Source: Falsiruegeria litorea R37 (GTDB lineage Bacteria; Pseudomonadota; Alphaproteobacteria; Rhodobacterales; Rhodobacteraceae). Taken from it: a DNA stretch of 64,000 nucleotides. Shown piece by piece: positions 56,465 to 64,000 of the stretch (positions within the stretch are counted from its first letter, which is position 1; each line of letters opens with the position of its first letter). The notes below the pieces were generated by a model. That model did not search any database, had not been told where the DNA came from, and was given only the letters and a program-made list of their open reading frames with translations. A program made the translations under genes and the position numbers. The stretch spans positions 62,001 to 126,000 of the forward strand of contig NZ_FWFO01000001.1 in assembly GCF_900172225.1 (NCBI RefSeq). The letters run 5' to 3'.

Positions 56465-57952
56465 ATGGGACATGCATTCAAACACACATTTCGAACGGCT
56501 TTGGCGCTAAGCGTCAGCCTGTTGGCCACACAGGCGTTTGCCAAGTCGGACATCACCGTCGCAATGCAATTGGAGCCGCCTCACCTCGACCCGACCAGCG
56601 CTGCAGCACAGGCCATCGACTCGGTTGTTTACACCAATGTGTTCGAGGGGCTGACCCGATTCATGGGCGATGGCGCCATCGTACCGGGCCTGGCTGAAAG
56701 CTGGGAAATCTCGGATGACGGCACGGTCTATACCTTCAAGTTGCACGACGGTGTGACCTTTCACGATGGCACCACAATGGATGCCGAAGACGTCAAGTTC
56801 AGCCTGGACCGGGCCCGGGCCGAAGACAGCGCCAACGCACAAAAGGCCCTGTTCGCCGGGATCACCGATGTTGCGGTAGTCGATCCGCTGACCGTCAAGG
56901 TCACGCTCAAAGAGCCCAACGGCAATTTCCTGTTCAACATGGCATGGGGCGATGCGGTGATCGTCGCGCCCGAAAGCATTGACGATATCAAGACCAACCC
57001 CATCGGCACTGGCGCCTTCAAATTCGCGGGCTGGGTGCAGGGCGACAAGATCGACCTGGAACGCAACGCCGATTACTGGGGCGATCAGCCGGCGCTGGAA
57101 AAGGCCACGTTCAAGTTCATTTCGGACCCCACCGCCGCCTTTGCCGCAGTGATGGCCGAAGATGTGGATGTCTTCAGCGGTTTCCCCGCCCCCGAAAACC
57201 TGCCACAGTTTGATGCGGATCCGCGGTTCCAGGTTCTTGTCGGATCGACCGAGGGTGAGACCATCTTGTCGACCAACAACAAGCAACCGCCTTTTGATGA
57301 TGTGCGCGTCCGTCAGGCGCTGGCCCATGCCATTGATCGTCAGGCCATCGTCGATGGTGCGATGTTTGGATATGGCACGCCCATTGGCACACATTTCGCC
57401 CCGCACCACCCGGCCTATGTCGATCTGACCGGCAATTCCGCCTATGACCCGGAAAAGGCCAAGGCGCTGCTGGCCGAAGCGGGGTTTGCCGATGGCTTTG
57501 AGACAACCCTGCACCTGCCGCCGCCGTCTTATGCGCGCCGTGGGGGCGAAATCATCGCGGCACAACTGGCCGAGGTCGGCATCAAGGCCGAGATTACCAA
57601 CGTCGAATGGGCGCAGTGGCTGGAAACGGTGTTCCGAGGCAAGAACTTTGGCCTGACCATCGTCAGCCATACCGAGCCGATGGACATCGGCATCTACGCC
57701 CGACCCGAATACTACTTCCAGTACGACAACCCGGCCTTTCAGGATCTGATGACAACGCTGAATTCGACAACCGACCCGGACGAGCGGACCAAGCTTTTGG
57801 GCCAGGCGCAGACCATGATATCGGAAGATTACGTGAACGGTTATCTGTTCCAGTTGGCCGCTTTGAGCGTCGCCAAGGCGGGCGTTCAGGGCTTGTGGGT
57901 CAACGCCCCAACCGCAGCCAACGATCTGACCGCCGTCAGCTGGGCCGAATAA
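56465..57952 (+). CDS. ABC peptide/nickel-type substrate-binding protein (SBP family 5)
   Basis: Periplasmic binding protein, 495 residues, feeding the Dpp/Opp-type importer encoded downstream. A signal peptide covers about 1-26 (ends A-F-A-K). Family 5 features include V-Y-T-N-V-F-E-G-L-T-R-F near residue 60 and L-A-E-S-W-E-I-S-D-D-G-T-V-Y-T-F-K-L-H-D-G-V-T-type repeats. The C-terminal half has V-R-Q-A-L-A-H-A-I-D-R. Ligands of the family are peptides, nickel or small organic molecules; the actual ligand is unknown. The start has ttggggag upstream. Confidence 0.93.
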   Translation: MGHAFKHTFRTALALSVSLLATQAFAKSDITVAMQLEPPHLDPTSAAAQAIDSVVYTNVFEGLTRFMGDGAIVPGLAESWEISDDGTVYTFKLHDGVTFHDGTTMDAEDVKFSLDRARAEDSANAQKALFAGITDVAVVDPLTVKVTLKEPNGNFLFNMAWGDAVIVAPESIDDIKTNPIGTGAFKFAGWVQGDKIDLERNADYWGDQPALEKATFKFISDPTAAFAAVMAEDVDVFSGFPAPENLPQFDADPRFQVLVGSTEGETILSTNNKQPPFDDVRVRQALAHAIDRQAIVDGAMFGYGTPIGTHFAPHHPAYVDLTGNSAYDPEKAKALLAEAGFADGFETTLHLPPPSYARRGGEIIAAQLAEVGIKAEITNVEWAQWLETVFRGKNFGLTIVSHTEPMDIGIYARPEYYFQYDNPAFQDLMTTLNSTTDPDERTKLLGQAQTMISEDYVNGYLFQLAALSVAKAGVQGLWVNAPTAANDLTAVSWAE

Positions 57953-57963
57953 CCAATACACTG

Positions 57964-57985
57964 CCGGGCCCACAATCGGGCCCGG
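57964..57985 (+). promoter_or_regulatory. intercistronic stem-loop after the binding-protein gene
   Basis: ccgggccc and gggcccgg form an 8-bp perfect stem with a six-base loop, 12 bp after the stop codon. There is no T run. It may protect the binding-protein mRNA from 3' decay and lower expression of the genes downstream. Confidence 0.6.
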
Positions 57986-58013
57986 TGAAGGACTTCGATA
58001 CTTTCTGCGTGAT

Positions 58014-59096
58014 ATGAATACCTTACGTTTTTCAAAGCCAATTCTGCTGCTGCTCTGCCTGTTGCTTGCGACGGTCCTGCTGATGCCCGTTCAGGCCTTG
58101 GCGCAGGGTCTGTTCCGATCTGACATGGACAGGGCCCTTGGCACGCCCGAAAACCCGCTTCAGGTTGGGGTTGGCATCCATATTGACCAGATCTCATTTG
58201 TCGACCAAAAATCTGAAAACTTTGGCGCCGTGGCGACAATCCGCGCGCGCTGGCACGACCCGGCGCTTGCCTTTGACCGCGACGAGATCGGCCGCGACGC
58301 GCGTATTGTAAAGCCCGAGGCTTTTGTCGAATACGCCTCCAGCCTGCCGACGATCGTGCCGGCCTTTGTCATCCAGAACCAGCAATCGAACCGCTGGATC
58401 CATCAATCCGTCGTCGCCATCGAGCACACCGGACAGGTGACCTATTTCGAAAAATCCTCGCTGACGTTGCAGGCGCCCTATTTCAACTTTAAGAAATACC
58501 CCTTTGATCAGCAGCAGTTCTTTTTCGAAATCGTCTCGGTCTTTCCAGCAGATGTCGTTCAATACACGGTGCTCGAAGAGTTTTCGGGCCTGGGTGAGCT
58601 GCTGGGCGAAGAAGAATGGATCCTTGAACGCCCCAACATGGTGCTGAGCACCACCACCGGCCTGTCCGGAGCCCCCAGTGCCAAAGTTGCGCTTGCGTTC
58701 GAAGGGCGGCGGCACGTCATGTATTATGCCATCCGTATCTTCATGCCGATGCTGGTTCTGATCGCCTGCAGTTGGGCGCTGTTCTTTCTGGACGAATACC
58801 GCAAACGGATCGAGATTGCGGGGGCTAACCTGCTGGTGTTTGTGGCTTTCAACTGGGTGATCTCGGATGACTTGCCGAAACTGGGATACCTGACTTTCCT
58901 GGATTTCATCCTGCAATGGATGTTTGTCGTCACCGGTGCGATCATCATATTCAGCGTCCTGCTCAGGCGGCTCAAAACCTCGGGTCGCGAAGATTTGGCG
59001 CGTAAGCTCGACAACTATGCGATCAAGTGGATTTATCCGTTGGGGTATGCCGCCATCGTGGGGTTTGCTGTCATGAACTATCTCGTTGTGTCCTGA
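58014..59096 (+). CDS. prokaryotic pentameric ligand-gated ion channel (Cys-loop family homologue)
   Basis: A 360-residue homologue of GLIC-type channels. Signal peptide residues 1-30 (ends A-L-A). A beta-sandwich ligand-binding domain follows (about 45-230), whose Pro-loop K-Y-P-F-D-Q-Q-Q-F (about 161-169) lacks the Cys pair, as in bacterial members. Four transmembrane helices lie near 236-258, 265-283, 291-318 and 336-358. TM1 has the family-type R-I-F-M-P-M-L-V-L-I. TM2 contains polar and small residues suited to a pore. The gene lies within the ABC importer operon, 61 bp after the binding-protein gene and 10 bp before the permease gene. Confidence 0.87.
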   Translation: MNTLRFSKPILLLLCLLLATVLLMPVQALAQGLFRSDMDRALGTPENPLQVGVGIHIDQISFVDQKSENFGAVATIRARWHDPALAFDRDEIGRDARIVKPEAFVEYASSLPTIVPAFVIQNQQSNRWIHQSVVAIEHTGQVTYFEKSSLTLQAPYFNFKKYPFDQQQFFFEIVSVFPADVVQYTVLEEFSGLGELLGEEEWILERPNMVLSTTTGLSGAPSAKVALAFEGRRHVMYYAIRIFMPMLVLIACSWALFFLDEYRKRIEIAGANLLVFVAFNWVISDDLPKLGYLTFLDFILQWMFVVTGAIIIFSVLLRRLKTSGREDLARKLDNYAIKWIYPLGYAAIVGFAVMNYLVVS

Positions 59097-59106
59097 CCCT
59101 GCGCCG

Positions 59107-60054
59107 ATGCTACGCTATGCCCTCAAACGCCTGTTGTCGCTGATCCTCAGCCTTGCGGTCGCCTCGCTGGTGATCTTTGCTGTGATCGAAGTGGCCCCAG
59201 GGGACCCGGCTTCCTTCATGCTTGGGGTGAACGCGCAGCCCGACACGTTGGCAGCCCTTCGGGCCGAGCTGGGTTTGGACGTACCCAAAACCGAGCGATA
59301 CCTGGATTGGGTCGGCGGTATGCTAACCGGGGATTTCGGCACATCTTACACGTATCGAACGCCGGTGTCGCAGATGATCGCGGACCGGATGTGGGTGTCC
59401 TTGCCGCTGGCGCTTTATGCACTGACACTGTCGACACTCATCGCCTTTCCTGCGGGCATCTACGCCGCCTCGCGCCGGGGCAAGCCCGGGGACATCGCAG
59501 TGATGGGAGCCACACAGTTGGGTGTGGCAGTGCCCAACTTCTGGTTTGCAATGATGCTGGTGCTGGTGTTTGCCATTAACCTGCGCTGGTTTAGCGCGGG
59601 TGGTTTTGCGGGCTGGGACAAGGGGGGGTGGGCCGCGCTGCAGTCGCTGACCTTGCCCGCCATTGCGCTGGCGCTGCCACAGGCTGCCATCCTTGCCCGT
59701 GTCATGCGATCGGCGCTGCTGGATGTGCTGGGAGAGGACTTTATGCGCACGGCCCGCGCCAAAGGTCTCAGCCGCCGTCAAGCCCTGTGGCGCCACGGGC
59801 TGCGCAATGCACTGATCCCGGTGTTGACGATCATCGGGTTGCAGTTTTCCTTCCTGCTTGCCGGATCGATCATCATCGAACAGGTGTTCTACTTGCCAGG
59901 CTTGGGGCGGCTGGTATTTCAAGCGATTTCGTCCCGCGATCTGATTGTGGTGGAGTCGGTGGTAATGCTCCTGGTCTTCGCGGTGATCGTTGTGAATTTC
60001 GTCGTTGATCTGGCCTATGCTGCCGTCGACCCACGCCTGAGGAGCCGGACATGA
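59107..60054 (+). CDS. ABC transporter permease (DppB/OppB-like)
   Basis: A 315-residue inner-membrane permease with six hydrophobic segments. The N-terminal M-L-R-Y-A-L-K-R-L-L-S-L-I-L is typical. The family motifs P-G-D-P-A near residue 35 and the EAA loop (A-R-A-K-G-L-S-R-R-Q-A-L-W-R-H-G-L-R-N-A) near residue 216 are present; the loop contacts the ATPase. The start at 59107 is chosen over an ATG seven codons earlier that overlaps the channel gene. Confidence 0.93.
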   Translation: MLRYALKRLLSLILSLAVASLVIFAVIEVAPGDPASFMLGVNAQPDTLAALRAELGLDVPKTERYLDWVGGMLTGDFGTSYTYRTPVSQMIADRMWVSLPLALYALTLSTLIAFPAGIYAASRRGKPGDIAVMGATQLGVAVPNFWFAMMLVLVFAINLRWFSAGGFAGWDKGGWAALQSLTLPAIALALPQAAILARVMRSALLDVLGEDFMRTARAKGLSRRQALWRHGLRNALIPVLTIIGLQFSFLLAGSIIIEQVFYLPGLGRLVFQAISSRDLIVVESVVMLLVFAVIVVNFVVDLAYAAVDPRLRSRT

Positions 60055-60097
60055 TCGGTCGAGTTGTGGTACTCCCTCTCGATTTTGCGGGACCGCG

Positions 60098-60148
60098 CCG
60101 TGGGCGAGGCCGTATGGACGCAGCGCGACCATACGGCCTCGCCCACGG
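60098..60148 (+). repeat. perfect 20-bp inverted repeat between permease genes
   Basis: Left arm 60098-60117 (ccgtgggcgaggccgtatgg) and right arm 60129-60148 are exact reverse complements, separated by an 11-base loop. It fills most of the 121-bp gap between the two permease genes. It is stable enough for an RNA hairpin but has no T run. It may be an RNA-stability element or a REP-like insertion. Confidence 0.85.
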
Positions 60149-60175
60149 TGCCCCCTCCCGGCTCGGACTGTCATC

Positions 60176-60991
60176 ATGAGCCGCAATCTGATCTTTGGTA
60201 CGGCCCTATCGTCACTCGTGGTGCTTGCCGCCGTACTTTCATTTGTGTGGACGCCCTACGATCACACCGCGCTCGACATCCCCAACAAGTTGAAGCCGCC
60301 AAACGCGACCCATTGGTTGGGCACGGATCACTTTGGCCGCGATATGCTGTCGATGATCATGGTCGGCGCCCGTACCTCAATCGCTGTTGCTTTGGTCGCT
60401 GTTGGCATCGGCATGGCCGCTGGTGTCCCACTTGGCCTGACCGCTGCCGCGCGCAAGGGATCGTGGCTGGATGAGGTGATCATGCGCGGCAATGATCTGG
60501 TCTTTGCCTTCCCCTCGCTTGTCATCGCCATACTGATCACCGCCATCTTCGGCGCAGGCGCGATCAACGCCATCATCGCCATCGGCATCTTCAATATCCC
60601 CGTTTTCGCCCGCATCACCCGCGGGGCTGCATTGTCGCTTTGGGAACGCGAGTTCATCATGGCCGCCCGCGTCGCTGGCAAAGGGGCCGCACGCATTTCA
60701 GCCGAACACATCCTGCCCAACGTTGCGAACCTGTTGATCGTGCAGGGCACCATCCAGTTCAGCCTGGGCATACTGGCCGAGGCAGGCCTCAGCTACGTCG
60801 GTCTGGGCGCACAGCCCCCCACACCCAGTTGGGGCCGCATGCTGGCGGATGCTCAAACGATGGTCAGCTTTGCGCCGCATCTGGCCTTGATCCCCGGCTG
60901 TGCCATCATCCTGACGGTGCTGGGTCTGAACCTCATGGGCGACGGGCTGCGCGATTGGCTCGACCCCCGCATCCGGGTGGCCCGTACATGA
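60176..60991 (+). CDS. ABC transporter permease (DppC/OppC-like)
   Basis: Second permease subunit, 271 residues, six hydrophobic segments. It has the H-W-L-G-T-D-H-F-G-R-D family motif near residue 43 and the EAA loop (A-R-V-A-G-K-G-A-A-R-I) near residue 165. The C-terminal L-G-D-G-L-R-D-W-L-D-P-R-type sequence (M-G-D-G-L-R-D-W-L-D) is diagnostic. Its stop overlaps the ATPase start (ATGA). Unusually it lies 121 bp after the first permease because of the inverted repeat. Confidence 0.94.
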   Translation: MSRNLIFGTALSSLVVLAAVLSFVWTPYDHTALDIPNKLKPPNATHWLGTDHFGRDMLSMIMVGARTSIAVALVAVGIGMAAGVPLGLTAAARKGSWLDEVIMRGNDLVFAFPSLVIAILITAIFGAGAINAIIAIGIFNIPVFARITRGAALSLWEREFIMAARVAGKGAARISAEHILPNVANLLIVQGTIQFSLGILAEAGLSYVGLGAQPPTPSWGRMLADAQTMVSFAPHLALIPGCAIILTVLGLNLMGDGLRDWLDPRIRVART

Positions 60992-62586
60992 GCCTGCTTG
61001 AGATCCGGAACCTATCCCTGTCGATTGGGGCGCATGACATTCTCAAGGGTGTCGACCTGACACTTGGCCCGGGTGAGATCGTGGCCGTGACAGGCGAGAG
61101 CGGATCCGGCAAGTCGATGACGGCCCTTGCGGTGATGCAGTTGTTGCCCCAAGCAGCCCGGGCCCAGGGGTCGATCCAGCTGGACGGCCAAGAGCTGCTA
61201 GACCTGCCCGAAGAGCAGATGTGCGCCTTGCGCGGTCAATCCATCGGGATGGTGTTTCAGGAACCGATGACGGCACTCAACCCAGTCAAGACCATCGGCG
61301 ACCAGGTGATGGAAACGATCCTGATCCACAAGGCCATGCCACCGGCCCAAGCCGAAGAGCGCGCGCGCGAGGTTCTGACTCGCGTCGGCCTGCCCCCTGA
61401 CCGCTTCCCTCTTTCACGGTTTCCGCATGAGCTGTCGGGCGGACAACGCCAACGCGTCGTCATCGCCATGGCCATTGCCTTGCGTCCTCGCTTGTTGATC
61501 GCAGATGAGCCAACTACAGCACTTGATGTTACGACGCAGGCGCAGATCCTCGACCTGCTTCAGGGGCTGGTGACCGAATATGGCATGGGAATGTTGATGA
61601 TCACCCATGACTTGGCCGTTGTCGCCGATCTTGCCGATCAGATCGTGGTCATGCGCAACGGTGAGGTGGTCGAAACCGGGCACACCCGGCATCTGCTGCG
61701 CCACATGCAGCACCCCTATACCCAGATGTTGTTCGAGGCCTCGGATCACCAGGTTACACTGCCCCCGGTGTCAGATTTGCAACCGCTGCTGGCCGTCGCC
61801 GATGTGGTGCGCGACTATCGCAAGCCCCGCACGCGGCTTTTTTCGAAACCAGAGTTTCACCGCGCGGTCGATGGCGTCAGTTTCACCCTCCACCGCGGCG
61901 AACGCTTGGGGTTGGTAGGGGAATCCGGTTGCGGTAAGTCGACCCTGACACGGGCCATTCTGGGCCTCGAAGAGGTTCAGCGCGGCCATATCCTGTTGGA
62001 CGGCAACCCGGTGTTTTCCGGCCACACGCCCAACCGCGCGGTGCGACGCAAGATGCAGGTGGTTTTCCAAGACCCATTCGGCAGCTTCAACCCACGCCAC
62101 AAAGTGGACCGGTTGATCACCGAGCCGTTCTACCTGCTCGATACCCCACCCCGAGGAGCGGAACGCAGCGATCGCATTGCCGAGATGCTGACAGCCGTCG
62201 GCCTGTCCCCAGATGATGCCGGGAAATACATCCACGAATTTTCTGGCGGCCAGCGGCAACGCATCGCCATCGCGCGCGCGCTGATCATCCGGCCCGAGTT
62301 GATCCTGTTTGACGAGGCGGTCTCGGCTTTGGATGTCTCGGTGCGTGCGCAAATCCTCGATCTGTTGGCTGAACTGTGTGAGGCCTATGAATTGACTTAC
62401 TTGTTCATCAGCCACGATCTGAACGTGGTGCGCACGATCACGGACCGGGTGATGGTCATGCAAGCAGGCAAGATTGTCGAACAAGGCGACACCGAGCGGG
62501 TGTTTACCGACCCTCAGCACCCCTATACCGAGGCGCTTTTGGCTGCCGCCCCACGCTTGCCCAAGATCACACAAGGGGTTGCATGA
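60988..62586 (+). CDS. fused double ABC ATPase (DppD-DppF-like)
   Basis: A 532-residue protein with two complete ATPase modules, replacing the separate DppD and DppF. Module 1 has Walker A G-E-S-G-S-G-K-S near residue 36, signature L-S-G-G-Q-R-Q-R, and Walker B L-L-I-A-D-E-P. Module 2 has Walker A G-E-S-G-C-G-K-S near residue 307, signature F-S-G-G-Q-R-Q-R, and Walker B with [12 protein letters not shown]. An oligopeptide_HPY-type C-terminal segment (H-P-Y-T near both module ends) is present. Translation is coupled to the upstream permease. Confidence 0.94.
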
Positions 62587-62643: not shown

Positions 62644-64000
62644 ATGACCACCGATCTCTGGTTTGATCCGACACTGTGCCTGATTGGTGGCGAATGGCGC
62701 CCGGCCACCTCGGGGCGGACGTTGCCATTGGTGAACCCCTCGGACGGGTCCGAGATCTGCCAGATCGCACGGGGCGAGACCGCAGATATCGATGCAGCCG
62801 TTGAGGCGGCTCAGGCCGCTTTGGACGGTGAATGGGGGCGGATGCCTGCATTCGAGCGCGGTCGTCTTCTGACCCGGCTGGGACAACTGGTTCTGGATAA
62901 GGTCGACGAATTGGCGGCCATCGAGGCCGCCGATGTAGGAAAACCGCTGACCCAAGCCCGTGCCGATGCCGTGGCGCTTGCACGGTATTGCGAGTTCTAC
63001 GGCGGGGCGGCAGACAAGATCCATGGCGAAACGATCCCTTATCTGGATGGCTATACCGTCTATTCCTTGCGCGAACCGCATGGTGTGACCGGCCATATCG
63101 TGCCTTGGAACTATCCCATGCAGATCATCGGGCGTTCTGTCGGGGCGGCTTTGACAATGGGAAACGCCGCTGTTCTGAAACCGGCGGAAGAAGCCTGTCT
63201 GACCGCATTGGCCTTTGCCGATCTGGCGGTACAGGCCGGTTTCCCCGCTGGTTCCCTGAACGTCGTTCCGGGTATCGGGGCAGAGGCGGGCGCGGCACTG
63301 TCGGCGCATCCCGGCATCCACCACATCTCGTTCACCGGGTCGGTGGCGACCGGGGCCCTGGTGCAGCAGGCGGCGGGCAAGAACGTGGTGCCTGTGACGC
63401 TGGAGTTGGGCGGCAAATCCCCGCAACTGGTGTTTGACGACGCCGATTTGGACGCGGCCCTGCCATTTCTGGTCAACGCTGGTATTCAAAACGCTGGTCA
63501 GACCTGCTCTGCCTCATCTCGAATTCTCGTACAGCGCGGCGTGTATGAGACGGTCAAATCCCGCATGGCCGAGGCCTATGGAGCACTTACCGTCGGCCCA
63601 GCGTGCGATGACCTGCGGGTTGGTCCGCTGATCTCGAACCGGCAAAAAGAGATTGTGACCGGTTTCCTCGACAAAGGTGCGGATCTGACCATCGCGGGCC
63701 AGGGTGTCCTTGTCGATCATGCGCCCGACACTGGCGCCTATGTCCGTCCCACGCTCTTTGCTGATGTGCCCGCCGACCACACGCTGGCGCGGGACGAAAT
63801 CTTTGGCCCTGTGCAGGTGCTGATCCCGTTCGACACCGAAGAAGAGGCCGTGCGCATCGCCAACTCCACCGACTATGGCCTGGTCGCCAGCATCTGGTCC
63901 CGCGACGGTGCCCGTCAGATGCGGTTGGCAAAACAGCTGCATGCGGGGCAAGTGTTCATCAACAACTACGGCGCGGGTGGCGGCGTCGAACTGCCCTTTG
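62644..64000 (+). CDS. aldehyde dehydrogenase (partial, runs past window end)
   Basis: NAD(P)-dependent aldehyde dehydrogenase, 452 codons visible and open at the window end. The catalytic Cys lies in N-A-G-Q-T-C-S-A-S-S-R near residue 290, the general-base Glu in V-T-L-E-L-G-G-K-S-P-Q near 256, and the Rossmann-like F-T-G-S-V-A-T-G near 233. The N-terminus includes I-G-G-E-W-R-P. It follows the ATPase gene by 57 bp and may belong to the operon, hinting that the imported compound is oxidised through an aldehyde. The start is ATG at 62644. Confidence 0.93.
   Translation, partial: MTTDLWFDPTLCLIGGEWRPATSGRTLPLVNPSDGSEICQIARGETADIDAAVEAAQAALDGEWGRMPAFERGRLLTRLGQLVLDKVDELAAIEAADVGKPLTQARADAVALARYCEFYGGAADKIHGETIPYLDGYTVYSLREPHGVTGHIVPWNYPMQIIGRSVGAALTMGNAAVLKPAEEACLTALAFADLAVQAGFPAGSLNVVPGIGAEAGAALSAHPGIHHISFTGSVATGALVQQAAGKNVVPVTLELGGKSPQLVFDDADLDAALPFLVNAGIQNAGQTCSASSRILVQRGVYETVKSRMAEAYGALTVGPACDDLRVGPLISNRQKEIVTGFLDKGADLTIAGQGVLVDHAPDTGAYVRPTLFADVPADHTLARDEIFGPVQVLIPFDTEEEAVRIANSTDYGLVASIWSRDGARQMRLAKQLHAGQVFINNYGAGGGVELPF

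Follow-up and report, generated by a model that had tools for sequence, protein, structure and literature searches.

A gene predicted to encode a subunit of a pentameric ligand-gated ion channel (pLGIC) lies among the genes of an ABC importer in Falsiruegeria litorea R37, and the question that this locus raises is whether channel and importer have a common job or are merely neighbours. The stretch of DNA analysed (the window) comprises 64,000 nucleotides of contig NZ_FWFO01000001.1. A sequence-only reading had placed the channel gene between the periplasmic binding protein and the permeases of a Dpp-type importer, with gaps of 61 and 10 bp on its two sides; the flanking genes and both distances are correct. 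The features of the locus, all on the forward strand, are as follows.

56465–57952, forward: family-5 periplasmic solute-binding protein (SBP), 495 residues, with an N-terminal signal-like segment (Pfam SBP_bac_5, 6.4e-97)
57963–57986, forward: strong GC hairpin directly after the SBP stop codon, without an immediate T-run (fold of −28.3 kcal/mol for a 91-nt stretch, z −2.3)
58014–59096, forward: predicted pLGIC subunit of sTeLIC/DeCLIC type, 360 residues, ATG start
59107–60054, forward: ABC permease B (permB), DppB/GsiC type (Pfam BPD_transp_1, 2.7e-40, plus BPD_transp_1_N)
60055–60175, forward: permB–permC spacer of 121 bp with a 20-bp perfect inverted repeat (60098–60117 and 60129–60148)
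60176–60991, forward: ABC permease C (permC), DppC/GsiD type (Pfam BPD_transp_1, 1.9e-32)
60988–62586, forward: ABC ATPase with two nucleotide-binding domains (NBDs), a DppD–DppF fusion, YejF/GsiA-like (Pfam ABC_tran in two stretches, plus oligo_HPY)
62644–64000 (to 64095 in the genome), forward: aldehyde dehydrogenase (ALDH; Pfam Aldedh, 9.2e-152)

Judged from its sequence, the product of 58014–59096 is a member of the pLGIC (Pro-loop) superfamily. It matches Neur_chan_LBD (Pfam PF02931; 1.1e-12, 48.2 bits against a cut-off of 26), and in an AlphaFold2 model (pLDDT 80.5) a hydrophobic N-terminal helix (residues 7–30) precedes an extracellular domain (ECD) of β fold and four transmembrane helices (235–256, 262–284, 295–322 and 326–357). 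The Pro-loop residues P163 and D165 are invariant in 25/25 aligned channel proteins, in which the flanking Cys pair is absent. The Pro-loop and four helices named in the sequence-only reading are found in this way. In M2, the 2′ pore position is Glu or Asp in 50/50 channel orthologues, and L9′ and W16′ are each present in all 50; the acidic 2′ residues also align in sTeLIC and DeCLIC. These two proteins are the best solved relatives in sequence comparison (sTeLIC, PDB entry 6fl9, 7e-75; DeCLIC, PDB entry 6v4a, 2.6e-68), and they account for all of ranks 1–26 when the channel model is compared with the PDB using Foldseek. The match to GLIC (∼1e-20) is much weaker, and for this reason the earlier label ‘GLIC-type’ was dropped and replaced by ‘sTeLIC/DeCLIC-type’: the channel superfamily was right and the type was not. 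Membership of the sTeLIC/DeCLIC subgroup is thus assigned by sequence, the closest solved relatives being neither GLIC nor ELIC. Pentamer formation and a ligand-gated current are predicted from family membership.

sTeLIC (from a Tevnia jerichonana endosymbiont; PDB entries 6fl9, 9ex6 and 9ewa) is also the best fold match (6fl9; 39% identity, TM 0.82 by target length). Like sTeLIC, the window channel has no extra N-terminal domain and carries an acidic 2′ pore residue, whereas the 16′ residue is Trp in the window channel and Phe in sTeLIC; this comparison covers sequence and fold only, and the importer-operon context is that of the window channel. DeCLIC (Desulfofustis; PDB entries 6v4a and 9ftg), likewise of the Pro-loop family, is ∼36% identical over the ECD and transmembrane domain (TMD) but has two extra N-terminal domains where the window channel has none. 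Gating by alkaline pH or by Ca2+ depletion is a trait of the sTeLIC/DeCLIC subgroup. The titles of the sTeLIC PDB entries refer to alkaline-pH gating and to a complex with 4-bromophenethylamine, an amine, and alkaline pH or Ca2+ are the stimuli described for sTeLIC and DeCLIC (PMC9897478).

The genes around the channel form a Dpp/Gsi-type ABC importer operon, with a family-5 SBP, two permeases and an ATPase that are all co-directional; family 5 we take to belong to the PBP-II fold class. An SBP_bac_5 protein, two BPD_transp_1 permeases and a two-NBD ATPase are common to this operon and to Dpp/Opp/Gsi-type importers, from which it differs in the extra channel gene between the SBP and the permeases. 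The permB reading frame starts at the ATG at 59107, which opens the conserved match in related loci, and permC and the ATPase gene overlap in an ATGA, the frame of the ATPase having been checked. The best solved relative of the SBP is YliB (PDB entry 1uqw, 1.8e-53). No substrate can be assigned to the importer, because the SBP scores below the NCBIfam cut-offs for GsiB, NikA and DppA and the permeases likewise fall below their equivalog cut-offs. Upstream of the operon, and divergent from it, are two pantothenate genes, panB and panC; 3′ of the ALDH gene, beyond the window, is a co-directional EamA transporter gene. The permB–permC spacer is confined to close relatives of the window (an equal gap is found in L023–L025 and L167), and other loci have permB and permC overlapping or directly adjoining. 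The spacer with its hairpin is single-copy in the genome, so a repeat family was ruled out.

A scan of a genome collection gave 47 related loci, of which 43 are complete for all five genes. The order SBP–channel–permB–permC–ATPase and the strand are kept in 43/43 of these, so the arrangement is not due to chance. A further two loci, L064 and L068, represent separate contigs of a single metagenome-assembled genome (MAG) that also fits the arrangement, giving a total of about 44 species; L060 and L067 have a channel and no importer. Across the complete loci the SBP–channel gap is 22–100 bp, and the channel–permB gap is exactly 40 bp in 29 of the 43. The operon is retained in L057 and L061 though the upstream panB and glpK are both missing there, and ALDH lies downstream in 41/43 carriers. 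A sTeLIC/DeCLIC-type pLGIC gene is conserved in the SBP–permB slot of this Roseobacteraceae importer operon. The linkage looked for by the sequence-only reading does recur, in the 43 complete loci and the split MAG, but it looks like one vertically inherited insertion and not like a pairing that arose several times over. Inserts between the channel and permB are present in two loci: one of 435 bp with a cupin gene (L061) and one of about 6.5 kb (L030) that carries genes resembling sarcosine oxidase. The latter (L030:11289–17504, and L126, from the same Ruegeria) also contains a GlxA/AraC-type regulator gene. The channel gene appears to be frame-shifted in genome G110 (L009/L127; two overlapping frames) and to bear stops in G007 (L010/L109); these copies are possibly decaying genes or assembly errors.

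Importers of this type mostly occur without the channel. In a family sample of 198 genomes the SBP is present in 119 and a channel orthologue (at least 52% identity) in eight, in all eight cases in the slot; the importer therefore does not need the channel. G031 has a close relative of the SBP (87% identical) and no channel. Channel-less SBP loci (n = 34) were picked mainly by SBP identity, with some finished genomes added. permB follows the SBP gene within the stretch in 22 of the 34, directly in nine (15–164 bp) and after a larger gap in 13, and other genes occupy the SBP–permB junction in about 13 of these 22 operons. They include a tannase-type gene (L130), cupin genes (L131, L133 and L134), HDAC-like genes on the opposite strand (L133, L137, L144 and L150), cyclases (L137 and L158), a LysR gene (L138), a metallo-β-lactamase gene (L156) and others, the names of the L158 cyclase, the LysR gene and the metallo-β-lactamase being readings of the sequence without a family search; no convincing gene was seen in the SBP–permB gap of L149. 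The slot is thus permissive, so that position within it is weakened evidence for a common function and co-location is no proof of co-function. The HDAC-family gene is acetylpolyamine-amidohydrolase-like in all four genomes, and the cupin genes recur, one exceeding the NCBIfam mandelonitrile-lyase cut-off. The HDAC-like and cupin genes may hint at the substrate of the importer; a guess at the substrate from these genes and the ALDH was dropped as too weak to claim.

The Ka/Ks of the channel gene is 0.03–0.11, which indicates purifying selection. Mean protein identity among the loci is 70% for the channel, 85% for the SBP and 91% for permB. In a separate comparison the ECD, with a mean identity of 74%, diverges faster than the SBP, with 87%; this might be unlike what is expected of two proteins with one fixed common ligand. 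Channel and SBP distances correlate with r = 0.87. A tree of the channels groups all slot-borne sequences in one clade (support 88/78) and leaves outside it the channels of L060, L108, L120 and L067, all located elsewhere than in the slot; none of the members of the slot clade was found outside the operon. Mapped on to the SBP tree, the presence of the channel requires nine gain/loss changes, at least six of them from starred branches. Read by parsimony, and with a moderately supported clade, the trees suggest one insertion into the slot and its loss in several lineages; recombination that spread the block is a conceivable alternative to a single insertion.

When the other genes of the region are controlled for, channel and SBP protein distances give a partial r of 0.67, the highest of any pair. 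The control pair panC–glpK, whose roles are unrelated, reaches 0.61 and ATPase–ALDH 0.55; all of these are pairs of neighbours. Distances at fourfold sites, which are near saturation, give no channel–SBP signal. Since the TMD covaries with the SBP as strongly as the ECD does (0.62 versus 0.61), the covariation does not single out a surface for docking. It is barely above that of an adjacent unrelated pair and does not separate coevolution from linkage.

At the position of the hairpin behind the SBP stop codon, a GC-rich stem of differing sequence is found in nearly all carriers and in many non-carriers. Hairpins behind SBP genes often stabilize the SBP mRNA and reduce the expression of distal genes. 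The hairpin here is probably an mRNA stabilizer or a partial terminator that separates SBP expression from channel expression. A search of Rfam gave no match. No clear Shine–Dalgarno sequence was seen at the channel start, and because of this and of the hairpin after the SBP stop we infer a low channel:SBP expression ratio. A separate promoter for the channel would have spoken against a shared transcript, and a promoter scan between the SBP gene and permB gave matches at chance level only.

The sequence-only reading had called the locus the clearest candidate in the window for a new functional system. This does not hold: predicted operons that combine pLGIC and periplasmic-binding-protein genes have been on record since 2004, which makes the kind of system a known one. 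Tasneem et al. (2004) described predicted operons in which a pLGIC gene accompanies a stand-alone PBP-II or Cache gene and, from the gene context, proposed a common ligand and a role as a chemoreception/chemotaxis receptor (PMC549065). A pLGIC gene beside a PBP-II gene, as in those operons, is present in 43/43 complete loci; what differs is that the channel sits inside a full ABC importer operon, that the linkage has been traced through about 44 species and that the slot is variable. Three details are new: the channel keeps its place within an entire importer operon, the slot varies in content and a hairpin recurs at a set position. Roseobacter and Silicibacter are not named in the text of Tasneem et al. 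(2004) (PMC549065), and a literature search gave no papers on a pLGIC with Ruegeria or on a pLGIC with a solute-binding protein and an operon.

The best explanation as a whole, in which our confidence is evenly balanced, is that the channel is an optional accessory that responds to an importer-linked periplasmic cue. From its distribution and the trees, the channel would have entered the slot once, been co-inherited with the importer and been lost or replaced in several lineages. Transcripts from the SBP promoter would reach the channel gene, though at a lower level than the SBP gene, and the product would assemble in the inner membrane as a homopentamer whose binding domain faces the periplasm, the compartment in which the SBP works. 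Family knowledge and the conserved acidic 2′ ring suggest that the open channel would pass cations inwards, dissipating the membrane potential or an Na+/H+ gradient. We moderately favour as the stimulus a small chemical cue in the periplasm tied to the conditions under which the importer is expressed, not a docked SBP. The cue could be the importer substrate or a related amine: primary amines activate ELIC (PMC3119659). As the substrate of the SBP is unassigned, the amine idea rests on distant relatives. The channel would then be an importer accessory and no required subunit. A more specific form of the proposal, a natural co-receptor in which the SBP ligand also gates the pLGIC, so that arrival of substrate sets off a cation current by which membrane energetics or expression would be adjusted while uptake proceeds, is possible but rather unlikely.

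Operon membership had been taken as a pointer to a common function. The tight, conserved linkage and the low Ka/Ks agree with this, but the mostly channel-less importers, the permissive slot and a covariation close to that of the control pair weaken it; a job common to channel and importer is plausible. The channel may instead be a co-expressed passenger that gained a permissive slot downstream of a strong SBP promoter and whose job has nothing to do with the importer (a general pH, Ca2+ or osmotic response, for example), its synteny being owed to vertical descent. We regard this as a real possibility that we would, on balance, doubt. The many unrelated genes in the slot of relatives, the one insertion clade, the eight channel-bearing genomes against 119 with the SBP, a channel–SBP covariation no greater than is expected of adjacent genes and the alkaline-pH or Ca2+ responses of sTeLIC and DeCLIC (PDB titles; PMC9897478) all agree with it. 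It sits less well with the failure to find a slot-clade channel outside the operon and with an order and spacing that persist in L057 and L061 despite the loss of both upstream flanking genes; the tight spacing and low Ka/Ks fit, without proving, selection on the operon form.

That a ligand-loaded SBP docks on the channel ECD, opens the channel and so couples uptake to ion flux is improbable. Both proteins act in the periplasm, other bacterial pLGICs have fused PBP-I or jelly-roll domains (PMC549065, PMC9897478) and the SBP–channel pair tops the partial covariation of the region, but the TMD covaries like the ECD, panC and glpK come close as near neighbours of unrelated role and the 87% identical SBP of G031 has no channel. 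Least probable is the chemotaxis receptor that gene context had suggested for those bacterial pLGICs whose genes are linked to genes of PBP-II or Cache proteins (PMC549065). CheW is absent from six of eight sampled carriers (the genome of the window, which is 99.94% complete, and G073, G038, G043, G087 and G110) and present only in G005 and G193; this makes a chemoreceptor role that relies on CheA/CheW unlikely here, and it was rejected for the lineage. Overall, we place a shared cue or shared ligand slightly above the passenger explanation, and direct SBP docking low.

Bacterial pLGICs, for most of which no natural ligand is known, serve as structural models of animal neurotransmitter receptors. 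That a channel is locked into a single importer operon over about 44 marine species narrows the search for a ligand, by way of the ligand of the SBP; if the shared-ligand proposal is true, it would give a bacterial pLGIC a natural ligand to which genetics points. The channel is carried by many culturable Ruegeria and is naturally missing in close relatives, which offers ready-made comparisons. The permissive slot is a caution that conserved operon neighbours need not have a common function.

Outside the slot clade, no pLGIC gene was found beside a family-5 SBP gene when neighbours were read from open reading frames (ORFs). A class-wide search of 385 genomes with an orthologue profile gave one further distant match, with no adjacent family-5 SBP on ORF reading, and a plasmid search with the channel protein gave no match. 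Other neighbours of distant pLGICs were seen. In L122 a pLGIC gene is followed by an adjacent, co-directional gene for a PhnD-type binding protein and by apparent sensor and response-regulator genes; in L118 and L123, two genomes of different families, it lies directly 3′ of a dCache_3 sensor gene; and in L119 an SBP_bac_3 gene is three ORFs away on the opposite strand. These PhnD-type, dCache_3 and SBP_bac_3 neighbours agree with Tasneem et al. (2004) (PMC549065). In L113 (5335–9788; ORF reading of a contig that has Ns) a TAXI-type binding protein and a TRAP permease are encoded upstream of a distant pLGIC (27% identity), and these two transporter genes themselves follow permB–permC–ATPase of the same importer type.
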